45,345 nucleotides of DNA, from NCBI RefSeq assembly GCF_009846755.1, contig NZ_AQOR01000031.1:1-45345 (forward strand), given 5' to 3'. A program made the position numbers and the translations under genes. This document shows, piece by piece, positions 28,464 to 39,968 of this stretch (position 1 is the stretch's first letter; every line of letters starts with the position of its first letter). Source of the DNA: Alcanivorax sp. S71-1-4. Its GTDB lineage: Bacteria; Pseudomonadota; Gammaproteobacteria; Pseudomonadales; Alcanivoracaceae. A model generated the notes under the pieces. That model was not told the origin of the DNA, made no database searches, and saw only the letters and a program-made list of their open reading frames with translations.

Positions 28464-29441
28464 TCAGACGGCCAGGGGCAGGCCGTGGTCGCTGCGGTCG
28501 GTCAGTATCTCGAACGCGGCCCGGTGGGAGCTGTACAGCGACAATGGGGGTGCGCCGGGTTGTTCCAGTGTGACGGTGCAGGTGGCGATCTTGCTGTTGA
28601 GGCAGATTTTGCTGCCCGCGGGCGGGTTGTAGTAGGTCAGGGCGGTGAAATGGCTGGCCGGCGCATGCAGATGCACGGTCAGCTGGCGGCCCTTGTGGCG
28701 GGTGCGGAACGACCAGTCGAAGAAGTGATACTGCTCGTCGGCCCGCAGGGCGGTGCTGATCCGGTTGAACTGCAGCGTCTCGTCGCCCAGCCGCAGGCAG
28801 GCCACCGTCAGCCAGGGGGAATAGACCGGCCCGAGTTTGACGCGGGCGCTGATGCATTCCAGAAAGGCGTCCTCGCGGTTGTCGAAGCCGGCCACCTGGC
28901 CCCAGGCGTACTGGTCAGTGTGCTGGCGGCCCCAGTTGTGGTTTTCACTGCCGGGCCAGTGGCTGATCTCGAACTGCTCCCCGTCGACCTCGAAGCTGCC
29001 GTCGAAGGCCACATTCGGGCGGCTCACCAGCGCTTTCGCCTTGGGCAGTTTCGTTTGATAGAGATTTTCCGGCAGCAGAAGCAGCGGGGTGTCGCCGTCA
29101 CCGTAGCGCAGGTCCCATCGCAGTGTGTGACCCGCGTGGGTGGCGTGCCCGGTCAGGGCGTGGCTCGCCAGCGACGCGGCAGGTAACCGGACGTCCATCT
29201 GCTCGCGCCCGAAATGACACGCAGTGAGGGGGTACTCATTTTTCACGGCCACGACCTGATCGCGCCCGGCATCGAACCAGATGGCCCACAACTCGCCGAG
29301 TGAGGGCCGGTCATCCGCCGGCACGAACAGTGTGTAGCGAATCCAGAACGCCTGGGGCTTGTGCGGATGATTGGCGCGCAGGAACCAGGACTCGTAGTGG
29401 CCGCCGTGGCCGCTGTACTGGCTGCCGTGATAAGGAATCAT
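28464..29441 (-). CDS. AttH/CrtC-like (lipocalin-type double barrel) protein
   Basis: The 325-residue product has no signal peptide. Its start (H-Y-E-S-W-F-L-R-A-N-H-P, then A-F-W-I-R-Y-T-L-F) and its beta-rich pattern with repeated aromatic strands resemble the AttH / hydroxyneurosporene synthase (CrtC) / tocopherol-cyclase-like double lipocalin group, which binds or hydrates long isoprenoid or lipid molecules. A His/Trp-rich segment in the middle (W-P-G-S-E-N-H-N-W-G-R-Q-H) could line a ligand or metal site. It overlaps the upstream gene by four bases, so it is translationally coupled to it. Family placement is from memory and moderate. Confidence 0.6.
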   Translation of the reverse strand: MIPYHGSQYSGHGGHYESWFLRANHPHKPQAFWIRYTLFVPADDRPSLGELWAIWFDAGRDQVVAVKNEYPLTACHFGREQMDVRLPAASLASHALTGHATHAGHTLRWDLRYGDGDTPLLLLPENLYQTKLPKAKALVSRPNVAFDGSFEVDGEQFEISHWPGSENHNWGRQHTDQYAWGQVAGFDNREDAFLECISARVKLGPVYSPWLTVACLRLGDETLQFNRISTALRADEQYHFFDWSFRTRHKGRQLTVHLHAPASHFTALTYYNPPAGSKICLNSKIATCTVTLEQPGAPPLSLYSSHRAAFEILTDRSDHGLPLAV

Positions 29442-29887
29442 CGCAGTGCCTCCGCGTCATGGTAGGCCCGCTCTTCGCGCACCAGGCGCAGCGAGCGGAA
29501 CAGGAACAACAGGATCGGTTCGCGATAGGCCACTTCGGCCTGGCCGATGGCCTGGCCCTGGCGATAGATCGTCAGCGGGCAGGTGATCAATGAACGGATC
29601 AGGCCGCCGCGACCGTAGGTCTTGTGGCCGATGGCTTCCAGCGGACCCAGTTCAGGGTGTTCAAAGGCGACGCGATAGTGCGGCCCGGTCAGACGGATGG
29701 TCAGCTCTCCGTGGCAGGCCAGATGCAGATCGCCCAGCCGCAACTGGCCCCGAAACGGGCGCGGCACCGTGAGGCTGAAAATGCGCGTGGTAAAGGCACG
29801 CAGGGAAAACGCGAACGGTTGCGGTGTGGCATCCGTGAACGTCAGCGTGCCGCTCATGGTTTCGCACAATAGCAGGCCGATGGCCAT
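29438..29887 (-). CDS. Small beta-rich protein of unknown function in the GMC operon
   Basis: From ATG 29887, two bases after the GMC stop with GGAGCC as ribosome site, the product is 149 residues. It starts M-A-I-G-L-L-L-C-E-T-M-S-G-T-L-T-F and shows alternating strands (G-Q-L-R-L-G-D-L, G-E-L-T-I-R-L-T-G) with a Gly/His turn (I-G-H-K-T-Y-G-R-G-G). It faintly recalls a small domain attached to some cholesterol-oxidase-like GMC proteins, but I cannot confirm this. The frame is open upstream within the GMC gene; that part is a shadow. Sandwiched between an oxidase and an AttH-like protein, it may be a subunit or lipid-handling partner. Confidence 0.7.
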   Translation of the reverse strand: MAIGLLLCETMSGTLTFTDATPQPFAFSLRAFTTRIFSLTVPRPFRGQLRLGDLHLACHGELTIRLTGPHYRVAFEHPELGPLEAIGHKTYGRGGLIRSLITCPLTIYRQGQAIGQAEVAYREPILLFLFRSLRLVREERAYHDAEALR

Positions 29888-29889
29888 GG

Positions 29890-31830
29890 TCAGGCTCCTT
29901 GCTCCAGTAAGGTGTCTGCCAGTCGCGCGGCGGCGCGGCTGGCGAGGGTCATCAGCGTCACCTGCGGGTTGGCGCCGAGGCTGGTGGGCGGGTTGCTGCC
30001 GTCCATCACATACAGGCCCTGCCAGCCATGCACGCGGTGGTCCGGGCCGCACACGCCCTGTGCCGGGTCGGCGGCCAGGCGGGCGGTGCCGAGCGGGTGG
30101 TAGGCACTCATCAGAAAATCGCGGGGATGATGACGCCGGGCCATAAAGGCCTCCAGTTCACGGGTGTTGCGCACGGTGACCAGCCGGCGGGTGCCGGGCA
30201 ACAGCACTTCTTCAGCGCCAGCGGCCAGATAAATGCGCGCGAGCGTGTCGATGCCGCGCAGGAACAGCGCGAAATCAGAGGGGTTCATGCGATAGCTGAT
30301 CCACGGCAGGTCGCGGTGCGGACCGCGCCTTACGCGGCCTTCGCTGGTGTCGCGGATCATGAAGCCGAAATAGGCGGTATGCGGATAGCGCTCGGTAAAG
30401 CGCACAAACTGTTCGCCGTACAGGGTATTGAGCAGGCCATGCCCGGCGAACGGCACGGTGCCGCCCTCGAACATCAGGCCCTCGTCGGCGAAATCCTGGA
30501 TGCCGAAACCCTGCGGAATAGTCCGGCCGTTACGCAAGGCGGTCTCGGGGAACACGGCATTGACCACGCCACAGGGGTGCAGCGTCAGGTGCCGGCCCAG
30601 ATGCGGATTGCGGACGCCGTTGTCACGCAGAAACAGCGGCGTCATGAGCGAGCCCATGGCGACGACTGTGGCACGCGCGTTGACGCGCAGACGCACGGTG
30701 CCGCCGCTGGCGCCCCGTCCTTCGGCTTCGATACCGTGGACGTGCCGGCCGTCGCGCAGCAGCCGTCGCGCACGCAGGCCGGTAAACAGAAAGGCGCCGC
30801 GTGCCAGTGCGCGGGGCATGTAGCTGACATTGGTGGATTGTTTGGCGTCGGTGGGGCAACCGAACTGACACAGGCCCTGGCCATCGCAGCCTGCCGCGTT
30901 GCGGCGCAGGGGATGCAACTGTTCAAGGCCGAGTGCGCGTGCGCCTTGCTCGATGATGCCGCCGATCGGGCCGACATGATGCCGGTCGGCGGGCTGCACA
31001 CGCAGCATCGCTTCCACGCTCTCAAACCAGGGCGCCAGCGTGTCTTCACTGAGATCGGTCAGGCCAAATTCATCGCGCCAGCGTTGCAGTATCGGCGCGG
31101 GCGTGCGCATGCAGGTGCCGGAATTGATGGTGGTGGTGCCGCCGACATTGCGACCGATGGGCACGGGAATGATCGCGTTGCCCAGCGCCGTGGTGGCGCC
31201 GAAGCCACGGTAAAGGCGGCGGATCATGTCCGGCAGGTCGCCATTGAAATGACGCCGGTCGTGCCAGTCACCTTCCTCGATCACCACCACCGCCAGGCCA
31301 CGGCTGGCCAGTTCATGGGCTGCCGCCGCGCCCCCGGCGCCGGTACCGATCACCACCACATCGGCGTCGAGGGTCTGGTCTTCTTCCAGTTCGGCGGCGC
31401 GGGTGATCTGCTGTTGCCAGCGGAACGTCTCGATCTGTTCTGGCACCTGAATACGGGGCACGCCCATACGCGCCGCGCGTTCGCTGTCGAACACATAGGC
31501 GGCACGGAAAGGCAGGCTCACCAGGCGCAGCAGCAGGCCGCTGACCCAGGTCGGACCCAGGGTATCCAGCAGCGCCCGCCGGGGCTTCACTTCGGCGCGG
31601 CTGAAGCGTGTGCCGAGGCGCAGCAGGCCGCGCCATTCCAGCCACGTTAGTCCGAGCGCCAGCAGCATGCGCAACAGGGGCTGGCGGGCGACATAGCCGT
31701 CCACCTGTGCAGCCAGGGTGGCGGCATCGGGGGCAGGCAAGGTGTCGCCAGCGGGGAACATCGCCTCGGCGAAGGCCACGGAGATACGGCTGCGTCGGCC
31801 CACGCGGGCAGAATCGGAGAGTTCAGTCAT
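29890..31830 (-). CDS. GMC-family alcohol oxidase/dehydrogenase
   Basis: From ATG 31830 the product is 646 residues. It has an N-terminal helical extension of about 155 residues, as in long-chain alcohol oxidases, then the FAD-binding G-T-G-A-G-G motif (about residues 162-167) and V-V-I-E-E-G. C314, C320 and C324 (CDGQGLCQFGC) form a three-Cys cluster typical of this subgroup. The C-terminal catalytic blocks are Y-H-P-L-G-T-A-R (His) and S-L-G-A-N-P-Q (Asn). It probably oxidises long-chain or sterol-like alcohols; the electron acceptor is unknown. It starts a three-gene operon. The frame extends to 31923, but the extra 31 residues look unrelated. Confidence 0.85.
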   Translation of the reverse strand: MTELSDSARVGRRSRISVAFAEAMFPAGDTLPAPDAATLAAQVDGYVARQPLLRMLLALGLTWLEWRGLLRLGTRFSRAEVKPRRALLDTLGPTWVSGLLLRLVSLPFRAAYVFDSERAARMGVPRIQVPEQIETFRWQQQITRAAELEEDQTLDADVVVIGTGAGGAAAAHELASRGLAVVVIEEGDWHDRRHFNGDLPDMIRRLYRGFGATTALGNAIIPVPIGRNVGGTTTINSGTCMRTPAPILQRWRDEFGLTDLSEDTLAPWFESVEAMLRVQPADRHHVGPIGGIIEQGARALGLEQLHPLRRNAAGCDGQGLCQFGCPTDAKQSTNVSYMPRALARGAFLFTGLRARRLLRDGRHVHGIEAEGRGASGGTVRLRVNARATVVAMGSLMTPLFLRDNGVRNPHLGRHLTLHPCGVVNAVFPETALRNGRTIPQGFGIQDFADEGLMFEGGTVPFAGHGLLNTLYGEQFVRFTERYPHTAYFGFMIRDTSEGRVRRGPHRDLPWISYRMNPSDFALFLRGIDTLARIYLAAGAEEVLLPGTRRLVTVRNTRELEAFMARRHHPRDFLMSAYHPLGTARLAADPAQGVCGPDHRVHGWQGLYVMDGSNPPTSLGANPQVTLMTLASRAAARLADTLLEQGA

Positions 31831-31981
31831 CCCGGCATGCTGGCACAGCCCCGGCCGCCGGGCTTGACCCTGCCCGCAACCTGCCATGCAGGATGGGACA
31901 AACGCACCGGCTGATATTGGCACCTCTGTGCCCGAACCCTAGCATGCCGTGCAACGACACCCATCGCACAGGGAGAAGGGA

Positions 31982-34528
31982 ATGCGGCACTGGATCAGGG
32001 TACTGCTGCTCGGGGGAATGGTGCTCGCCACCACTGGCTGTATGGAGGGCTGGCTGAACAAGTGGCTGGCGGATTCCGTTGATGCACAGACCGGCACGCT
32101 GAGGCTGGAGGGGCTGGCGGCGCCAGTGATCATTGGTCGCGATGAACTGGGCATCCCGCTGGTGGAGGCCGAATCCCTTGATGATCTGGCGTTCGCCACC
32201 GGTTGGGTGATGGCCGGGGACCGGCTCGCGCAGATGGTGGGTTTCACCATGGCGGCCCAGGGCCGGCTGGCGGAGATGGCTGGTGAAGTGGCGCTGCCGA
32301 TGGACCTGTACAGCCGCACACTCGGGTTGCGGCAGATTTCCGAACAGCAACTGGCCGCCGGCAGTGATGAATTGAAGTTCCTGCTGCAACGCTTCAGCGA
32401 CGGGGTAAATGCCTGGCTGGCGGCCCACGAAGCGCGCATGCCGCTGGATTTCCGTCTCGGCAGTTTTCAGCCTGAGCCCTGGGCGCCGATCAATTCGGTG
32501 GACGTGTTCACCATGATCAACCTCGGCCTCGGCGTGAACCTGCACGAAGAAATCATGGCGCTGAATCTGGCCGACCGCGTCGGCGCGGACAAGCTGCCCT
32601 GGCTGGTGCCGGTGTATCCGGACGAGCCGCTGTCATTTGACGAAGCCGCCAAATTAAACGACCTGCCGCTACCGGAACTGGCCCGGCAGGCGCAGGCGCT
32701 GGATGCTGCGCGCGACGGTTTTGAGCAGTTGCTGATGCCGCAGGGGCTGGCGGCCAGCAATAACTGGGTGGTGGCGCCTTCGCACAGCACCACCGGCCAG
32801 AGCCTGCTGGCGAACGACACCCACCTGTTGATCAGTCAGCCGCCGATGTGGATGCTGCTGCATCTGAAAACACCGGCTCTGCAAGTGGCCGGGGTCGCCG
32901 TGGCCGGCATGCCGGTGCCGGTGATCGGCTTCAATGGCAACGTGGCCTGGGGCGCGACCATGGTGATGGCCGATGCGCAGGATCTGTTTCTGGAACAACT
33001 GCGAGACATCGATGGCCAGTTGCATTACCTGGCCAATGGCGAATGGCTGCCGGTGGCCGAGCGTGAGGAAGTATTCAAGGTGCAGGGCGGTGAGGCCGTG
33101 ACGCACACGGTGCGCAGCACGCGGCACGGCCCACTGCTGGACAGCGTGCTGAATGCACCGCCGATATCGCCGGTGGTCCCGCCGCGGCTGGCGGACAACA
33201 TGGCGCGCTACGGCCTGGCGTTTTCCTGGACGGCGGCCCGGGCGGACAACACCATGGACGCCATGTTTGCGCTCGGACGTTCGCAATCACTGGCCGAAGC
33301 ACGCGAACACATTCGCGGCGTGCGCTTTATCCATCTGAACATGGTGATGGCGGACCGGGACGCTGCAGGCTGGCAGGTGACGGGCCGTTACCCGTTGCGC
33401 AAACAGGGCACCGGGCAGTTCCCGTCGCCAGGGTGGGATGGCGACTATGACTGGGCTGGTTTTGCCGACTTCGATCAGCATCCGAATGACTTTGCGCTGG
33501 AGAAGGGGTTTGTCGGGACCGCCAACCATCGCACGGTGGCGGCGGATTATCCGTTGGTGCTGAGCCGGTCCTGGTTCTACCCCCAGCGTGGTGACCGGAT
33601 CAACCAGCTGTTGTCGGCCAAGGCGAAGCACAGCGCCGAAGACATGGTGGCCATGCAGGCGGACCGGTTTGATCGTTTCGTCCCGGCCTTGCAGGCGGTG
33701 TTGTCGGATCACCGCCCCGCGCTGGCTGCCGCTATCGATGCCTTGCCATCTGCGCGGCAGGCGCCGGCCCGCCGGGCGCTGGCCATGCTCGACAGTTTCG
33801 ATGGGGTAATGCTCGAGGACAGTGCCGCCGCGGCGTTGTACGGCGTCTTCTTTCATTTCGCTGCGCGCAATATCTTCCTCGACGAACTGGGGCCGGAAGA
33901 GGGCCCGGTCTGGCAGTCGTTCACCCGCATGACACTGCTGTCCTATTCCGCCCCGCAAGACCATCTGCTGCAACGCGAAGACAGCCCGTTCTGGAATAAC
34001 GCCGACACCCCGGAAACAGAAACCAAATGGGACATTTTTGCGCAGACGCTGGCGGATGCCTGGGCCTTCAATATTCAGACACTGGGCGACGACCCGGCCC
34101 GATGGGCCTGGGGCGACCTGCATACCTATGAATGGAAAACCGCCGCCAGCCAGATGAAGCCCTGGCTGCCGCGGGTGCAGCGCTGGGCGATCGGTGCAAT
34201 GGAAGGGTATCTCAATCGCGGGCCGTACCCGGCCGGCGGCAACCACAACACGCTGAACGTGGCCGGCGCCATGCTCGGCCGCGATTTCGATGTGCATTCG
34301 ATCCCGGCGATGAGAATGGTGGTGGATTTTGCCGCCGATGAACCGCTGCAACTGGTCAACAGTGGCGGTCAGAGCGGCAACCCGGCCAGCCCGCATTATG
34401 ACGACGGCATTGATGTGTGGCTGGGCTGGGGCAATCGTACGCTGCCGTTTTCCGAGGCAGGGCGCGCTGCGCATTATGCCCAGCGCCTGACCCTGATGCC
34501 GTCAGAAGCGCCGGCGGCGACGCCGTAG
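31982..34528 (+). CDS. Lipoprotein penicillin-acylase-family Ntn hydrolase
   Basis: From ATG 31982, with a strong GGGAGAAGGG site, the product is 848 residues. The signal sequence ends A-T-T-G-C, a possible lipobox with Cys20. The precursor should cut itself before Ser259 (G-L-A-A then S-N-N-W-V-V), giving an alpha part of about 240 residues and a beta chain of 590 with N-terminal Ser nucleophile; the family block L-A-N-D-T-H-L follows about 20 residues later. Relatives cleave beta-lactams, N-acyl-homoserine lactones or N-acyl amino acids. The long-chain-lipid neighbourhood favours an N-acyl amide substrate, which is inference. It diverges from the GMC operon across 151 bases and converges on the SDR gene, overlapping its end by 27 bases. 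Confidence 0.88.
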   Translation: MRHWIRVLLLGGMVLATTGCMEGWLNKWLADSVDAQTGTLRLEGLAAPVIIGRDELGIPLVEAESLDDLAFATGWVMAGDRLAQMVGFTMAAQGRLAEMAGEVALPMDLYSRTLGLRQISEQQLAAGSDELKFLLQRFSDGVNAWLAAHEARMPLDFRLGSFQPEPWAPINSVDVFTMINLGLGVNLHEEIMALNLADRVGADKLPWLVPVYPDEPLSFDEAAKLNDLPLPELARQAQALDAARDGFEQLLMPQGLAASNNWVVAPSHSTTGQSLLANDTHLLISQPPMWMLLHLKTPALQVAGVAVAGMPVPVIGFNGNVAWGATMVMADAQDLFLEQLRDIDGQLHYLANGEWLPVAEREEVFKVQGGEAVTHTVRSTRHGPLLDSVLNAPPISPVVPPRLADNMARYGLAFSWTAARADNTMDAMFALGRSQSLAEAREHIRGVRFIHLNMVMADRDAAGWQVTGRYPLRKQGTGQFPSPGWDGDYDWAGFADFDQHPNDFALEKGFVGTANHRTVAADYPLVLSRSWFYPQRGDRINQLLSAKAKHSAEDMVAMQADRFDRFVPALQAVLSDHRPALAAAIDALPSARQAPARRALAMLDSFDGVMLEDSAAAALYGVFFHFAARNIFLDELGPEEGPVWQSFTRMTLLSYSAPQDHLLQREDSPFWNNADTPETETKWDIFAQTLADAWAFNIQTLGDDPARWAWGDLHTYEWKTAASQMKPWLPRVQRWAIGAMEGYLNRGPYPAGGNHNTLNVAGAMLGRDFDVHSIPAMRMVVDFAADEPLQLVNSGGQSGNPASPHYDDGIDVWLGWGNRTLPFSEAGRAAHYAQRLTLMPSEAPAATP

Positions 34529-35470
34529 TGGCCTGACGTTATCGTGATAATCCTGCGGTGGCGGCAAGGCCTTGCCGCGCGCCGCCGCAGATTCCGGCGT
34601 CACCTGATAGGCCAGGTTGACCATCGCCTCTGACAGTGTCGGCAGCACGGCATGCGCCGTCTGGGCAATATAGGCGAACGGGCTGGCCACCCGTTTCTGT
34701 CGCGTGATGATCGCGCGGCAGATCTGGTCCACGGCCTGTTCCGGCGAGATGGCCGGGGTGTAGCGGTAGATCTCGGTGGGCGCGATCATCGGTGTGCGCA
34801 CCAGCGGGAAATTCACCAGCGTAAAACGGATACGGCGGTGGCCGAGTTCATTGGCGGCTGCCTGGGTCCACATCTCCAGTGCCCCCTTGGACGCCAGGTA
34901 AGCGGAAAAGCGCGCCGGAATGGTCTGCATGCCCAGCGTGGAAATATTGATCACCTGTGCGCCGCCCTGTTCCACCATGCGGGGCAACAGCGCCATGGTC
35001 AGCCGGATGGCACCAAAATAGTTGAGCTGCATGGTGCGTTCGAAATCATGAAAGCGGTTCAGCGCATGCATCACCGGCCGGCGGATGGAGCGCCCGGCGT
35101 TGTTCACCAGGATATCGATGCGAGGGTGTTCGGCGAGGACCTCTGCGGCCATGCGTTCGCAGTCTTCCGGGTTGGCGATGTCGCAGGGGTAGGCGGTGGC
35201 CCGTCCACCGTGCTGTTCAATCAGATGCACCACCTGCTCCAGTTTCTCGGTACTGCGTGCCGTCAGCAGTACCTGTGCGCCGGCGCGTGCCAGCCGGTAC
35301 GCCAGCGCCTCGCCGATACCGGTACTGGCACCGGTGATGAGGACCGTGCGGCCTTGCAGCCGCTGGCGCAGGTGGTAGCCAGGAAAGAGGCGGGCATCCA
35401 GGTTGCGGGCCAAGGAGCCGGCCATTTCGGTGGCGTAGGGCAGCAGGTTAGGCAATCGAAAACGGGCCAC
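34502..35470 (-). CDS. Acr1-like short-chain reductase (fatty acyl/aldehyde reductase candidate)
   Basis: From GTG 35470, with GGAGGA five bases upstream, the product has 322 residues. It is a classical SDR: T-G-A-S-T-G-I-G (about 46-53), N-N-A-G (123-126), catalytic S177 and Y191-x3-K195. The block R-S-I-R-R, F-H-D-F-E-R-T-M-Q-L-N-Y-F-G is shared with Acinetobacter Acr1 and with the C-terminal half of the FAR encoded at 36939-38954; over 60 residues starting at D119 I count 48 identities with that half. It therefore probably reduces fatty acyl-CoA or fatty aldehyde. The C-terminus ends in six Arg plus Phe, encoded in the overlap with the acylase gene. The frame runs upstream to 35659 without family-like sequence. 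Confidence 0.85.
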   Translation of the reverse strand: MARFRLPNLLPYATEMAGSLARNLDARLFPGYHLRQRLQGRTVLITGASTGIGEALAYRLARAGAQVLLTARSTEKLEQVVHLIEQHGGRATAYPCDIANPEDCERMAAEVLAEHPRIDILVNNAGRSIRRPVMHALNRFHDFERTMQLNYFGAIRLTMALLPRMVEQGGAQVINISTLGMQTIPARFSAYLASKGALEMWTQAAANELGHRRIRFTLVNFPLVRTPMIAPTEIYRYTPAISPEQAVDQICRAIITRQKRVASPFAYIAQTAHAVLPTLSEAMVNLAYQVTPESAAARGKALPPPQDYHDNVRPLRRRRRRF

Positions 35471-35694
35471 AGGGTCCTCCTGAGGGATGAACAGTCTTGC
35501 CTGACGATACGCCAGCGGGCGGCAAACGCCACTGTCATTTTGCATCGGTAGCCGGGCGCGATGGTCAATCCGGGTGAGAGTGCTGCCGGTCACATAATCG
35601 ATGTCGGCGTTACAGCTTGTTACGCCTGCGGGGTGGTGTGGCGGCGCCGGTATTGGCACTTTGTCAGCGAGTTTTCAGCACGGACCTTTCTGTA

Positions 35695-36822
35695 ATGAGC
35701 CGTTATCTGCGCGAGCAGTTTGAAGAAGTGGACCTGACGCCCGGCCGTGGCCGCCTCAGTGCGATGTTGTCACTGGCGTTTGGCATGCTCGCTTTCACCG
35801 GCAGCTTCTGCTTTCTGTTTCCTGACTGGTTTACCACGCCTGAATTCCGGGCGCTGTATTCCGCCACCTGGTTGCGGGTGACGCTGTATGCCGGTATCGC
35901 GGTCGCGTTCGTGGCGGGCTTTGTCAGCGTGCTGCGCCACGAAAATCGGCGTTATGGCCTGGTGGGCATGCTGCTGGCCTGCATGGCGGCACTGTTCGGG
36001 TCCGGTCAGCTTGATGTGCCACCTGTGGCCGGGCGCAGCGTATACGCCGGGCTGGACTATTTTGTGCTGACGCTGCTGGTGCTCGGGCTGGTGTTCATCC
36101 CGCTGGAGCGGGCGTTTGCCAAGCGCCCCGAGCAGAAAACCTTGCGCAAAGGCTGGGTGACGGACATGAAGTATTTCCTGTTCAGCCATGTCGGCCTGCA
36201 ATTGATCAGTTTCTTTACCATCATCCCGATCCAGGTGGTGTTGCACGACAAGGTGGATATCGGCTTCCAGCAGAAGATTGCCAGCCTGCCATTGTGGGTG
36301 CAGTTCATCGGCATTCTGGTGGCGGTGGATTTCGGTACCTACTGGGCGCACCGGGCGATGCATGAAATCCCGGCCCTGTGGAAGATTCACGCGGTGCATC
36401 ATTCTTCCGAACAGATGGACTGGCTGGCGTCATCACGGTTGCATCTGGGTGAAATTCTGGTGAACCGCTTTCTGGGCTACCTGCCGATTTTCGTCCTCGG
36501 CTTTTCGCCTGCGGCGGTATATGCCTATCTCGTCTTTATCTCTTTCCACGCCATTTTTATTCACGCCAATGTACGCTTCCGGTTCCCGGTGCTGCGCTGG
36601 GTAATCGCCACGCCGGAATTCCATCACTGGCATCATTCTTCCGAGGACGAAGCGGTGGACAAAAACTACGCCGCGTTTCTGCCGGTGTATGACGTGCTGT
36701 TCGGCACGGTGTACATGCCGGACAAACTGGCCAGCACGTATGGGACGCGCGCCAGCACACAGGTGCCGGAGGGGGTGGTGAAGCAGTTTTTGTTTCCGTT
36801 TCGGCGTAATCGGCCGGTTTGA
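35695..36822 (+). CDS. Membrane fatty-acid-hydroxylase/sterol-desaturase family protein
   Basis: From ATG 35695 the product is 375 residues with about six hydrophobic segments. The di-iron histidine boxes are complete: H219-x3-H223 (HRAMH), H232-x2-H235-H236 (HAVHH) and H310-x2-H313-H314 (HHWHH). Members hydroxylate or desaturate sterols, carotenoids, fatty acids or alkyl ethers using O2. It lies between two acyl-reductase genes, so a fatty acyl, alcohol or alkylglycerol substrate is plausible. An in-frame ATG at 35617 gives a longer form with an unlikely N-terminus; the ribosome site at 35695 is weak. The stop is directly followed by repeat copy B. Confidence 0.88.
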   Translation: MSRYLREQFEEVDLTPGRGRLSAMLSLAFGMLAFTGSFCFLFPDWFTTPEFRALYSATWLRVTLYAGIAVAFVAGFVSVLRHENRRYGLVGMLLACMAALFGSGQLDVPPVAGRSVYAGLDYFVLTLLVLGLVFIPLERAFAKRPEQKTLRKGWVTDMKYFLFSHVGLQLISFFTIIPIQVVLHDKVDIGFQQKIASLPLWVQFIGILVAVDFGTYWAHRAMHEIPALWKIHAVHHSSEQMDWLASSRLHLGEILVNRFLGYLPIFVLGFSPAAVYAYLVFISFHAIFIHANVRFRFPVLRWVIATPEFHHWHHSSEDEAVDKNYAAFLPVYDVLFGTVYMPDKLASTYGTRASTQVPEGVVKQFLFPFRRNRPV

Positions 36823-36914
36823 GGGGTGGTGGGATTCGCTGCGCTCTTCCCACCCTACAGTAGCGTCGATGTTTTTACGTAGGGTGGGAAGAGCGCAGCG
36901 AATCCCACCACCCC
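36823..36914. repeat. Perfect 36-base inverted repeat, copy B of the dispersed repeat
   Basis: Arms 36823-36858 and 36879-36914 are exact reverse complements separated by a 20-base loop. Each reads GTAGGGTGGGAAGAGC outward from the loop, the same layout as copies A and C. It begins at the first base after the hydroxylase stop and lies between converging genes, where the RNA stem could act as a bidirectional end signal. Confidence 0.9.
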
Positions 36915-36938
36915 GGGTCAAGCAACAAGCCAGATCCT

Positions 36939-38954
36939 TTACCAGTGAATCCCCTTGAACAGCCGTGAAAACGCCTGCTGCTCGCGGCTGATCTTCTTCG
37001 GTGTGTTTTCCTTCTGCCCCAGGGCGGCCGCCGAGTCCGAGAAAATCTTGTAGCCAGTGTTCATGATGGTCTCGGTGATCTTCGGTGTCAGGAAATGCAT
37101 CACCGAACCAAGAATGCCCAGATTTGTGGCGATGCGCTTCGGCTGGCGGATGATCGCGTCGCTGATCATGTCTGCCGCCTGGCTCGGGCTGATGGTCGGC
37201 ACATGGTTGTAGATTTTTGTCGGCGCGATCATCGGCGTGCGAACCAGTGGCATATTGATGGTGGTGAAGCGGATGCCCTGGTGCGCCATCTCTGACGCGG
37301 CGCAGCGGCTGAACGCATCCAGCGCTGCCTTGGAGGCCACGTAGGCAGAGAAGCGCGGTGCGTTGGTCAGCACACCAATGGACGAAATATTGATGATGTG
37401 GCCGCCGCCCTGTTCGGTCATTGACGGCAGCAGCTTCATAATCAGCCGCAGTGCGCCGAAATAGTTGAGCTGCATGGTGCGCTCGAAATCGTGGAAGCGG
37501 TCCAGCGCATGCATCACGGAACGGCGGATAGAGCGGCCGGCATTGTTGACCAGGACATCCACATGGCCGTGGTCCCGGAGCACTTCTTCCACCAGCGCAT
37601 CGCAACTGGCCAGGTCGGAGACATCGCAACTGTAGGCCTGTGCGCGGCCGCCGATCTTGGCGATTTCATCCAGTGTTTCGTCGAGCTTTTCCTTGGTGCG
37701 GGCGACCACCAGCACATAGGCACCGGCGCGGGCCAGTTTCAGCGCGGTGGCCTTGCCGATGCCGGAGGTGGCGCCGGTGACCAGCACCACTTTGTCGGCC
37801 ACGCGCTCTTCCAGTGTTGGCAGGGGTTGCAACTCGTCGGCGCGCTCATCGCGCTCCGGGTCCAGGTGATTGGCCCAGTAATCCCACAGCATCTGTGCGT
37901 AGGATTCCAGTTCCGGGGCCTGAATGCCGCTGCCTTCCAGCGCCGCGCGCGTGCGGTCGTTGGCATAGGTCGTCGGGTAGGTCAGGAATTTCAGGGTGGC
38001 TTCCGGGATATCGAGGCTTTCCAGCGCCTGGTTGAGCAGGAATTTGCTTGGCGGCAGGCTGGCCACACCCTTGCGCAGCATGCCGATGCCCGGCAGGGCG
38101 CGGAACAGGCTGTTGTCCAGGCGCACCGCCATTTTCGGGGCGTCGGCCACGGCGGCGAAAATATTCACCACCTCGCCCAGGCTGTAGTGGCGGTCGGCGG
38201 TGAGGTGGAAGCATTCCCCGTCACGGCCGCTCTGGTGCGCCAGCTGGTCGATGGCGTCGGCGACGAAGTCCACCGGCACAATGTTGAAGCGGCCACCCTC
38301 GACACCGAGCAGCGGAATCCAGGGCGGCAGCAGATCGTGCAGGCGCTGGATCAGCTTGAACAGATAATAGGGGCCGTCGATCTTGTCCATCTCGCCGGAC
38401 TGCGAGTGGCCGACCACCATGGACGGGCGGTAGATGCGCACCGGCAGCTTGGCCTCTTCGCGCACCAGCCGCTCGGATTCGTGTTTGGTGTAGAGATAGG
38501 GATCGGTGAGCGGCCCGGCTTCCTCGAACATGGTTTCGTCGAAGGTGCCTTCATACAGGCCGCCGGCGGCGACCGAGCTGACGTGATGGAAGCATTTCGC
38601 GCCCAGTTCCTCGGCCAGTTTCAGCGCCTGCCGGGTGCCTTCGATGTTGGTCACCTGCTGGCTCTCGGCGTCCATGTTCAGATCATAGATGGCAGCCAGG
38701 TGCATGAACTGGTCGATCTGCCCCTTGAGGTCGTCGCGCTCGCGCTTGCTCACGCCCAGCAGCTTGCGGGTCATGTCGCCCTTGATCGCCACCAGTTGCT
38801 CCGGCTCGACCTTCAGGCGCTTGCGCAGGGCATCGATCTTGTACTCTGAGCCCGGGCGCACCAGTGCGAAAACACGGGTGCCGGGCCGCTTGAGCAGGCG
38901 GGCAACAAGAAAACGACCGATAAAGCCGGTAGCGCCGGTGACGAAGTAATTCAT
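36939..38954 (-). CDS. Two-domain fatty acyl-CoA reductase (alcohol-forming, FAR)
   Basis: From ATG 38954 the product is 671 residues. The N-terminal domain (1-370) is an extended SDR/male-sterility type with T-G-A-T-G-F-I-G-R at 6-14 and Y153-x3-K157; the C-terminal domain (385-671) is a classical SDR with T-G-A-T-S-G-I-G (393-400), N-N-A-G (470-473) and Y538-x3-K542. Start, blocks and the end (F-K-G-I-H-W) agree closely with the Marinobacter FAR (Maqu_2507 type) as I remember it, which makes fatty alcohol from acyl-CoA via aldehyde for wax esters. A promoter and an 18-base palindrome lie upstream, and a TetR gene diverges. The frame continues to 39191, but family similarity begins at 38954. 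Confidence 0.93.
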   Translation of the reverse strand: MNYFVTGATGFIGRFLVARLLKRPGTRVFALVRPGSEYKIDALRKRLKVEPEQLVAIKGDMTRKLLGVSKRERDDLKGQIDQFMHLAAIYDLNMDAESQQVTNIEGTRQALKLAEELGAKCFHHVSSVAAGGLYEGTFDETMFEEAGPLTDPYLYTKHESERLVREEAKLPVRIYRPSMVVGHSQSGEMDKIDGPYYLFKLIQRLHDLLPPWIPLLGVEGGRFNIVPVDFVADAIDQLAHQSGRDGECFHLTADRHYSLGEVVNIFAAVADAPKMAVRLDNSLFRALPGIGMLRKGVASLPPSKFLLNQALESLDIPEATLKFLTYPTTYANDRTRAALEGSGIQAPELESYAQMLWDYWANHLDPERDERADELQPLPTLEERVADKVVLVTGATSGIGKATALKLARAGAYVLVVARTKEKLDETLDEIAKIGGRAQAYSCDVSDLASCDALVEEVLRDHGHVDVLVNNAGRSIRRSVMHALDRFHDFERTMQLNYFGALRLIMKLLPSMTEQGGGHIINISSIGVLTNAPRFSAYVASKAALDAFSRCAASEMAHQGIRFTTINMPLVRTPMIAPTKIYNHVPTISPSQAADMISDAIIRQPKRIATNLGILGSVMHFLTPKITETIMNTGYKIFSDSAAALGQKENTPKKISREQQAFSRLFKGIHW

Positions 38955-39182
38955 GGAACGGACCCCTTTTTGCTTCCCTGTTGTGGACCGCTGAGCGCAC
39001 AGCGGCGTGACATTGATACCTGCGTGGCCTGGCGCTCTCTCTCGGCGCCCTTGGCTGGCCATGCTGTCCCGCTCCTGCCCGGAGCGGTCGTATTGTCCTG
39101 TGTGATAGTCGCCCCGCTGTGTGACAGCCGTCCAGCGGAGGCCGCTGGATGCCTTGCAGGTTTTTTGCCATGTCGGCATTTT

Positions 39183-39200
39183 GACTAACAAGTGTGAGTC
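39183..39200. promoter_or_regulatory. Operator candidate of the TetR/FAR region
   Basis: The 18 bases fit GACTnACAnnTGTnAGTC, so all fixed positions are symmetric. It lies directly downstream of the FAR -10 element, over the expected transcription start. Its outer GACT/AGTC halves and ACA/TGT core recall the DesT/FabR operators of gammaproteobacteria, whose repressors resemble the product of the adjacent gene. Confidence 0.65.
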
Positions 39201-39202
39201 GA

Positions 39203-39231
39203 ATTTTGGGGTTGGATGCGGGTCATGTCAA
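39203..39231 (-). promoter_or_regulatory. FAR promoter
   Basis: On the minus strand a perfect -35 TTGACA (39226-39231) is 17 bases from CAAAAT (39203-39208, four of six to consensus). Transcription should start near 39196, inside the palindrome, giving a leader of about 240 bases before the FAR ATG. Confidence 0.6.
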
Positions 39232-39329
39232 TAATCGGTACAAAAAAAGTACAGAATTAGAAGTTGTGATGTCAGATTGATCAATATAGGCTAACAACTG
39301 TTCTGCGAATATGGGCCGATGAGTCAGCC

Positions 39330-39968
39330 ATGAGTACGCTTTCCCGCGCTGAGAAGAAACAACATACCCGTGAACGTATCCTTCAGGCGACGCTGTCGCT
39401 GATCACGGAAGGCCGCAGCCTGGACAGCCTGGGCCTGCGGGAAGTGGCGCGGGCTGCCGACCTGGCCCCCACCTCCCTGTACAACCATTTCCCGGACATG
39501 GAAGCGCTGGGGCTGGCGCTGGTGGAGCAGGCCTGCACCCGCCTGCGTGAACGCATGCGTGAAGGCCGGCAGGCACTGATCAAGGGGCAGGCCAGCACCG
39601 CCATCCGCAGCATGATAGAGCGCTTCATCGGTTACCTGGACGATCATCAGATCGAGTTCCGGCTGCTGGTGCGTCAACGCCTGGGGCCGTCGCCGGTGTA
39701 CCAGAAGCGTATCCACCGGGCGCTGCAATTGCTGGTGGAAGAATTGGCCGACGATGTGCGGCAGGTCGTCGCCACCCGTGTTCAGGTGCCGGTGAACGTG
39801 GAGGCGGAAGCCGAAGCGGCGGTGGCGATCATGTTCGGTTTCGGCATCCTGGCACTGGATATGTCACCGGACACCCGTGCATTGCAGCTGCCGCGCCTGG
39901 AAGTGCAGTTGCAGATGGTCTTCCTGGGAGGGCGGGCGATGGCAGCAGGCATGCGGCTCGATAGTTAA
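39330..39968 (+). CDS. TetR-family regulator, FabR/DesT-like
   Basis: The 212-residue protein has an N-terminal TetR helix-turn-helix (residues about 12-58: T-R-E-R-I-L-Q-A-T, then S-L-G-L-R-E-V-A-R-A-A-D-L-A-P-T-S-L-Y-N-H-F in two parts). The words L-R-E-V-A-R, A-P-T-S-(L/F)-Y-(N/R)-H-F and the following E-A-L-G-L are those of FabR and DesT, repressors that sense acyl-CoA or acyl-ACP saturation. The C-terminal ligand domain is all-helical. It diverges from FAR across a palindromic operator, so FAR is its likely target, probably with its own gene. It is not the fabR gene of membrane desaturation by context. Confidence 0.85.
   Translation: MSTLSRAEKKQHTRERILQATLSLITEGRSLDSLGLREVARAADLAPTSLYNHFPDMEALGLALVEQACTRLRERMREGRQALIKGQASTAIRSMIERFIGYLDDHQIEFRLLVRQRLGPSPVYQKRIHRALQLLVEELADDVRQVVATRVQVPVNVEAEAEAAVAIMFGFGILALDMSPDTRALQLPRLEVQLQMVFLGGRAMAAGMRLDS

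Follow-up and report, generated by a model that had tools for sequence, protein, structure and literature searches.

A candidate wax-alcohol locus with an optional three-gene oxidase cassette in Alcanivorax sp. S71-1-4

We analyzed a stretch of 45,345 nucleotides from Alcanivorax sp. S71-1-4 (Alcanivoracaceae; positions 1 to 45,345 of NZ_AQOR01000031.1, contig 25 in a draft assembly of 4.18 Mb), hereafter called the window. Eight coding genes at 28464-39968 were typed by Pfam and NCBIfam profile searches, among them a fatty acyl-CoA reductase (FAR), a divergently encoded TetR-type repressor, and a compact group of three genes, hereafter called the trio, encoding a GMC oxidoreductase, a protein of 149 amino acids, and a protein resembling AttH. 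With a probability of about 0.5, we read this as a locus for wax-alcohol synthesis to which an oxidase cassette is optionally added; FAR and TetR would form the core, and the trio would be a linked alcohol-oxidizing module. The original prediction of eight genes within 11.5 kb was borne out, as all were typed and the expected motifs were seen; the eight are a real set, but not one system. The features of the core and of the trio are the following:

36939..38954, minus strand: FAR, bifunctional fatty acyl-CoA/fatty aldehyde reductase, 671 amino acids (PRK07201; 45/46 genomes of the family)
39330..39968, plus strand: TetR repressor, DesT/FabR-like, 212 amino acids, divergent from FAR (FabR model, DesT as structural relative)
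39183..39200, no strand: main candidate operator, consensus NACTAACANNTGTTAGTN (palindrome scan, score 23.6)
39289..39306, no strand: second candidate operator, degenerate, near the TetR start (palindrome scan, score 15.5)
29890..31830, minus strand: GMC oxidoreductase, 646 amino acids, with a Gluconate_2-dh3-like N-terminal extension, trio gene 1 (Pfam)
29438..29887, minus strand: mostly-beta protein of 149 amino acids without a Pfam family, trio gene 2 (predicted model, locus comparison)
28464..29441, minus strand: AttH/CrtC/tocopherol-cyclase-like protein, 325 amino acids, trio gene 3 (predicted fold, conserved residues)

Conservation of the locus within the family

Forty-six genomes of the window's family were searched with six of the eight proteins; the short-chain dehydrogenase/reductase (SDR) encoded in the cluster was picked up by the FAR search, and the 149-amino-acid protein was sought only in the fetched stretches. 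The one genome without FAR (G115) also gave no TetR or AttH-like match. The FAR neighborhood was mapped in 44 of the 45 FAR-bearing genomes; in the remaining one (G152), FAR lies on a 4.4 kb contig, only a short FAR locus was fetched, and there was no AttH-like match. Most maps share the frame GspD-TPR-cyclase ... FAR-TetR-nitroreductase-MoxR, with single members absent or cut off in some. TetR adjoins FAR in 35 of the 44 mapped genomes; among the remaining nine loci, at least one is truncated where its contig stops.

The genes of the trio are tightly packed in the window, with 2 nt between the GMC gene and that of the 149-amino-acid protein and an overlap of 4 nt between the latter and the AttH-like gene. 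At the thresholds set, 25 of the 44 mapped genomes have all three genes, 19 have none, and no genome has a part of them, so that the trio is an all-or-none unit in this family. The genome-wide search for the AttH-like protein was likewise positive in 25/46 genomes, and all 25 also have the GMC gene. The pieces of the trio lie on different contigs in five of these; on contigs that hold both, the trio is on the FAR strand, between the cyclase gene and FAR. In A. jadensis (L100), FAR, TetR, and the trio are present with neither an acylase nor an SDR gene next to them. When presence of the trio was placed on a FAR tree (44 rows, two of them long, built by a quick method), ten changes were needed, at least eight of them forced by well-supported branches, and the label was nevertheless more clustered than expected by chance (2 of 500 shuffles were as low). 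In one genome (G130), the AttH-like gene (L054, 8592-9569) has a single in-frame TAG, while the small protein of that genome aligns without a stop.

The reductase, its repressor, and a candidate operator

The FAR protein matches the NCBIfam model PRK07201 over its full length (model positions 1-657 of 657; 932 bits against a cut-off of 549), with an N-terminal NAD_binding_4 domain, a C-terminal adh_short domain, and YxxxK and Rossmann motifs in both. This full match supports the fatty-alcohol-making type of reductase that had been predicted to supply fatty aldehyde and alcohol, and by analogy the protein is predicted to be an ordinary wax-alcohol reductase that converts acyl-CoA to fatty alcohol. 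It is alike in length and kind to Maqu_2220 and FCR1 (Rv3391), which both make fatty alcohol for wax esters and which we take to share the PRK07201 architecture. FCR1 has 650 amino acids and has been aligned with MAQU_2220 (PMC3522743), fatty alcohol or wax-ester production by enzymes of this type is reported in PMC10355004, PMC12358690, and PMC3522743, and the related reductase genes acrB and farA appear in PMC6308636. In contrast to Maqu_2220 and FCR1, the FARs of the window's family are mostly paired with a DesT/FabR-like repressor encoded divergently and, in 25 of the 44 mapped genomes, are accompanied by the trio. Wax synthase genes were found in all 46 genomes of the family; the window's genome has one copy, encoded outside this locus.

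The best solved relative of TetR is DesT (E = 1.2e-17). TetR also scores 146.8 bits on the FabR model NF008402, for which the cut-off is 151, and is thus FabR-like rather than a FabR equivalog. The likeness to DesT and FabR extends to the conserved palindromes in the divergent promoter region. DesT and FabR act on genes for unsaturated fatty acids, whereas the TetR gene of the window adjoins that of a wax-alcohol reductase.

The palindrome NACTAACANNTGTTAGTN is present in two to four copies (at most two mismatches) in each of the 35 FAR-TetR intergenic regions. These regions hold 93 sites, as compared with 4.7 in letter-shuffled regions, the pattern having been derived from the same 35 regions, which are not independent because they come from related species. 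The best score elsewhere in the window is 7.6. Because these palindromes are conserved, DesT is the nearest solved relative, and the FabR model is just missed, it is likely that an acyl-responsive switch acts on FAR and on TetR itself through the candidate palindromes. TetR is accordingly worded here as a probable acyl-sensing repressor, in line with the acyl-chain sensing first proposed for it.

The trio proteins and their occurrence elsewhere

The GMC protein matches GMC_oxred_N (157.3 bits) and GMC_oxred_C (74.3 bits), both above the cut-off (E = 6.5e-46), and it carries the motifs AYHPLGT and NPQ. For the N-terminal extension, a Gluconate_2-dh3 match was obtained in 13 of 17 members (best E = 2.1e-6), the window protein itself staying under the cut-off (E = 0.0085 for the N-terminal piece and 0.098 for the whole protein). 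Such an extension is a trait of long-chain alcohol oxidases (LCAOs; EC 1.1.3.20). In its GMC domains the window protein is like the LCAOs of fungi and plants, and its candidate extension may be a further likeness; it differs from them in being bacterial and in having two partner genes. Known LCAOs are GMC enzymes (PMC9299179). In A. borkumensis, another GMC protein, ABO_1174, was seen only on pristane and has been likened to FAO1 (PMC6850023). Other GMC paralogs, with 27-38% identity, occur in the window's family. The predicted oxidation of an alcohol by the GMC protein thus stands as far as some LCAO features go; the extension of the window protein falls short of the cut-off, and its nearest solved relatives, choline oxidases (E ~1e-22), are distant.

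The AttH-like protein of the window reaches 19.8 bits (E = 4.6e-4) on Tocopherol_cycl (PF14249), short of the gathering score of 26.6, while a relative (L113) reaches 26.7. All 19 aligned members match this family, mostly weakly (best E = 2.4e-6), and three of the 19 match CrtC at a loose threshold. No relative among solved structures was found by sequence at E <= 1. The predicted model is rich in beta strands (predicted local distance difference test score, pLDDT, of 91), and its fold matches include 2ICH (E = 1.4e-9), 7A0Q (1.2e-8), and 9FZN (9.2e-6), with template modeling (TM) scores, by query length, of 0.50-0.58; the relatives in fold are AttH (2ICH), kievitone hydratase, a pericyclase, and 25-phosphosteroid lyase. 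Residues H168, W170, H174, and Y178 are conserved in 66/66 rows, D176 in 65/66, and E195 in 65/65; H168 and W170 lie in a peptide used to fetch the loci, and the other conserved residues do not. Alanine mutants of His239, Trp241, Tyr266, and Asp268 of CrtC are dead (PMC4717167). The window protein thus shares with the superfamily of CrtC, kievitone hydratase, AttH, 25-phosphosteroid lyase, and tocopherol cyclase the fold, weak Pfam matches, and an HxW motif with an acidic residue, and differs from it in scoring below the Pfam cut-off and in having a GMC gene alongside in all 25 genomes of the family that encode it. The spacing from HxW to the acidic residue is two residues shorter than in CrtC, and, judged by motif and spacing, the protein does not fit the carotenoid 1,2-hydratase CrtC proper, since Tyr-x-Asp is not kept, although HxW is. 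Because of its CrtC-type fold and of conserved residues that resemble the CrtC catalytic set, the AttH-like protein is probably an enzyme rather than a carrier, and the pattern of these residues argues for proton-initiated chemistry more than for carriage. The lipid-carrying role first suggested for it is therefore not one that we retain.

No Pfam family was found for the 149-amino-acid protein. In its model (pLDDT 80), beta structure predominates and is followed by short helices at the C terminus, and its structure matches, none of which reaches E <= 0.001, include AttH, LolA/LolB, and retinol-binding proteins. Common ancestry of this protein with the halves of the AttH-like protein was considered and rejected, as comparing their profiles revealed no relationship (probability 4%).

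When the collection was scanned for the AttH-like protein, 65 named loci emerged, of which 19 were assigned to the window's family and 46 lie outside it. The outside loci were found with two peptide patterns, and distant forms will therefore have been missed. Within 3.5 kb, 17 of the 46 have both a GMC gene and a small-protein gene, six have GMC only, and one has the small protein only; at another (L121), GMC lies just past this limit on the opposite strand. The trio thus recurs in other gammaproteobacteria, without FAR alongside. In a Fluviicoccus metagenome-assembled genome (L093, 8560-9969), the small protein and the AttH-like protein form one fused reading frame. GntR genes of one family are found in the AttH/GMC neighborhood of four loci (L113, L110, L121, and L147), where no small protein was found; that of L113, which immediately precedes AttH, was assigned a FadR-like type. 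The mycobacterial genes Rv0492c-Rv0492A-Rv0493c, next to Rv0494, may be the same trio. Both Rv0492c and Rv0493c occur in PMC10100808. Rv0494 is called a GntR-family regulator in PMC4301838, and a title cited there terms it fatty acid-responsive.

Some outside loci have features of their own. In Hahella (L122, 6194-7975), the AttH-like gene follows a diverged GMC gene with a signal resembling that of twin-arginine translocation (22.5 bits against a cut-off of 22.7), and a 261-amino-acid protein of no family is also encoded there; this is possibly an exported version of the module. At three loci (L109, L114, and L117), a distant penicillin-amidase gene, with 24-25% identity to the acylase of the window described below, lies about 2.5-3 kb beyond AttH. 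No AttH relatives were found on plasmids.

In a sample of 390 genomes of the order (AttH-like protein at E <= 1e-60, FAR at E <= 1e-150), 24 have the AttH-like protein, 96 have FAR, and 21 have both. With genomes treated as independent, the chance of this co-occurrence is 3e-11, or 9e-7 outside the window's family, figures that overstate the significance because genomes are not independent: of the 12 outside genomes in which both occur, 11 come from a single family, f29. The latter is the HdN1/Ketobacter family, and it and the window's family (f1) are the two that carry the co-occurrence. One genome with FAR (G035) has a weak AttH match, under the threshold. In an f29 genome (G252; L172, 15567-17456), a diverged second FAR (44% identity) is encoded about 7.6 kb past the GMC gene of the trio. 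Beyond the window's family, the link between trio and FAR is suggestive.

Neighboring genes and interpretation of the locus

Three further genes lie between the trio and FAR in the window:

34502..35545, minus strand: stand-alone SDR, kin to the FAR C-terminal domain, start uncertain (PRK07201 model positions 335-632)
31982..34528, plus strand: penicillin-acylase-type N-terminal nucleophile (Ntn) hydrolase with a lipoprotein-like signal, as judged by eye (PF01804)
35695..36822, plus strand: membrane FA_hydroxylase (di-iron) protein, 375 amino acids (PF04116)

The acylase gene diverges from GMC, and its 3' end overlaps the SDR gene by 27 nt. The hydroxylase and FAR genes are convergent, and a perfect inverted repeat of 29 bp lies between them at 36830-36907; among 179 fetched loci, only two that are pieces of the window contain an exact copy.

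The SDR (family match E = 3.6e-49) has YxxxK and Rossmann motifs, its match to the PRK07201 model includes the linker, and it was found in 14/44 mapped genomes. A tree of SDRs and FAR C-terminal domains was built from 38 domain sequences, with L083 entered twice and long branches flagged. The C-terminal domains of the main FARs of the family separate from the lone SDRs of the family (support 92/77), some of which fall in a clade with the full-length second FARs of G156 and G066 (L083 and L183; 91/91). The SDR of the window lies outside this clade, at a fork that the tree leaves unresolved, and lone SDRs from two further families (L187, L188, and L191) group on the side of the main FARs. The simplest reading for this locus is that the SDR may be a second FAR trimmed of its acyl-CoA half; repeated trimming, or fusion in the other direction, could also have given rise to it. 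In G156, a tandem full-length second FAR (L083, 432-2426; 707-amino-acid frame) lies between FAR and GMC, at the usual place of the lone SDR.

The acylase matches the penicillin-amidase family PF01804 (E = 2.1e-191) and has an SNNW motif; Ser259 lines up with the first residue of the beta chain in many solved structures, and the nearest solved relatives are D-succinylase and glutaryl-7-ACA acylase. By these sequence features, it is an intact Ntn hydrolase. Assignment as PvdQ was rejected (NF051460, 41.1 bits against a cut-off of 950). It was found in 5/46 searched genomes (5/44 mapped), all in the window's genus. In a genome of another family (QR_Bin.12, L128/L162), an acylase with 49% identity has the same divergent position by GMC, with AB and GspD homologs around. 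Because of this shared position, an older acylase-trio neighborhood that was lost or exchanged elsewhere is possible, and the two might also be tied in function. The hydroxylase matches PF04116 (E = 1.3e-30) and has three His clusters; it is not the ornithine-lipid hydroxylase OlsE (NF052566, 121.8 bits against a cut-off of 475). Its orthologs (at least 74% identity) are present in 31/46 genomes, in the cluster in only two of them (the window and G147), and in eight Alloalcanivorax-type genomes the gene shares a contig with FAR at a distance of about 42-45 kb. The acylase and hydroxylase are therefore described here as neighbors of limited distribution at this locus, mostly not kept in place by relatives.

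In the scheme that we favor, FAR would reduce long-chain acyl-CoA through the aldehyde to fatty alcohol, which the wax synthase encoded elsewhere in the genome would esterify, and the divergent DesT/FabR-like repressor would read the acyl pool and control FAR and itself by binding a few palindromes. The GMC, 149-amino-acid, and AttH-like proteins would form a separate three-protein module. We infer that its flavoenzyme oxidizes an alcohol, either long-chain or branched (isoprenoid), to the aldehyde, the flow being toward turnover. The CrtC-fold partner could carry out a proton-initiated hydration, dehydration, or isomerization on the chain of the GMC substrate, and the small beta protein would pair with this partner in a complex. 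The SDR would be a FAR relative that retains the aldehyde/alcohol half only. On a more tentative footing, the trio could be an undescribed three-component alcohol-converting system for long-chain or isoprenoid alcohols, joining an acid catalyst of the CrtC/tocopherol-cyclase type to a flavin alcohol oxidase; this cassette would be inherited or lost whole beside wax-alcohol synthesis in Alcanivorax relatives and would recur in HdN1/Ketobacter-type and other bacteria.

Several observations weigh against this scheme. The trio is missing from 19 of the 44 FAR loci. Outside the family, FAR proper was not found beside the trio in the regions fetched, neither partner lies within 3.5 kb of AttH at 22 of the 46 loci (some are at contig ends), and co-occurrence with FAR is concentrated in f29; the four AttH genomes outside f1 and f29, three of which are 74-87% complete, comprise one with a full-length FAR, one with fragments, and two with none at the threshold. 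The GMC protein is far from solved relatives. Phe (F193) stands at the CrtC Tyr position in 63/65 and Glu at the Asp position in 65/65, in a correspondence set by motif and spacing and not by alignment to CrtC. In 24 loci, the 300 bp upstream of GMC contained no TetR palindrome (best score 2.5); control of the trio by this palindrome was thus rejected, and the trio is not placed in the regulon of the repressor. Read-through from FAR could provide its control, since on every contig where both were mapped the trio is on the same strand as FAR; the window has two genes of the opposite strand in between.

Some of the same observations would suit a trio unrelated to fatty alcohols, which would modify the ring or side chain of an isoprenoid, quinone, or sterol-like compound and merely adjoin FAR, by chemistry like that of tocopherol cyclase or CrtC together with a GMC enzyme resembling cholesterol or choline oxidase. 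The absence of FAR beside the trio and the many AttH loci lacking partners outside the family fit this, as do the Tocopherol_cycl matches of all 19 members and the folds that act on prenyl or steroid chains. We nevertheless consider it less likely, as the position and strand of the trio beside FAR are fixed in one family where the whole cassette changes repeatedly, the trio co-occurs with FAR in two families, and a GntR gene, in one case FadR-like, lies near four AttH loci. A purely non-catalytic role, in which the AttH-like and 149-amino-acid proteins would supply GMC with an insoluble alcohol as lipid carriers or chaperones, would account for two beta-rich models, for the lipid-handling proteins among the sub-significant structure matches of the smaller one, and for the fusion in L093; against the conserved residue set, which resembles the essential residues of CrtC, it appears improbable. 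The least probable reading, by a wide gap from likely, is the one closest to the original prediction, namely a single pathway of all eight genes that builds or recycles a lipid alcohol modified in an unusual way, by hydroxylation or otherwise. The genes are physically close in the window and in one near relative (L036), and an acylase also stands beside the trio in one genome of another family, but strands alternate, the acylase is rare, hydroxylase orthologs are widespread and seldom FAR-adjacent, and the palindrome is found at FAR/TetR alone. A single eight-gene operon or pathway was rejected from the family survey and palindrome scan: across the family, FAR mostly stays with TetR and the trio is kept or lost as a block, whereas the hydroxylase is scattered and the acylase largely so. 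Scatter among relatives had been named with the original prediction as a sign against it. No gene found at the locus points to the ether-linked alcohols that had also been envisaged.

What is new for the wax-alcohol locus favored here is a candidate operator for an ordinary wax-alcohol reductase and an uncharacterized, conserved three-gene module. Among the titles and abstract beginnings listed, none describes a repressor of this FAR or the still nameless trio, which does not establish that either is absent from print; nothing on regulation or alcohol turnover at this locus was found among the matches listed. For wax-ester storage in oil-degrading marine bacteria, the synthases and reductases are known, and regulation and alcohol turnover are seemingly much less so. 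For the main reductase, the survey now provides a definite candidate operator and a candidate repressor, and it indicates that the eight-gene neighborhood should not be modeled as a single pathway. The three-gene module offers a testable tandem chemistry; the best-studied members of the fold of its AttH-like protein are thought to protonate isolated double bonds.

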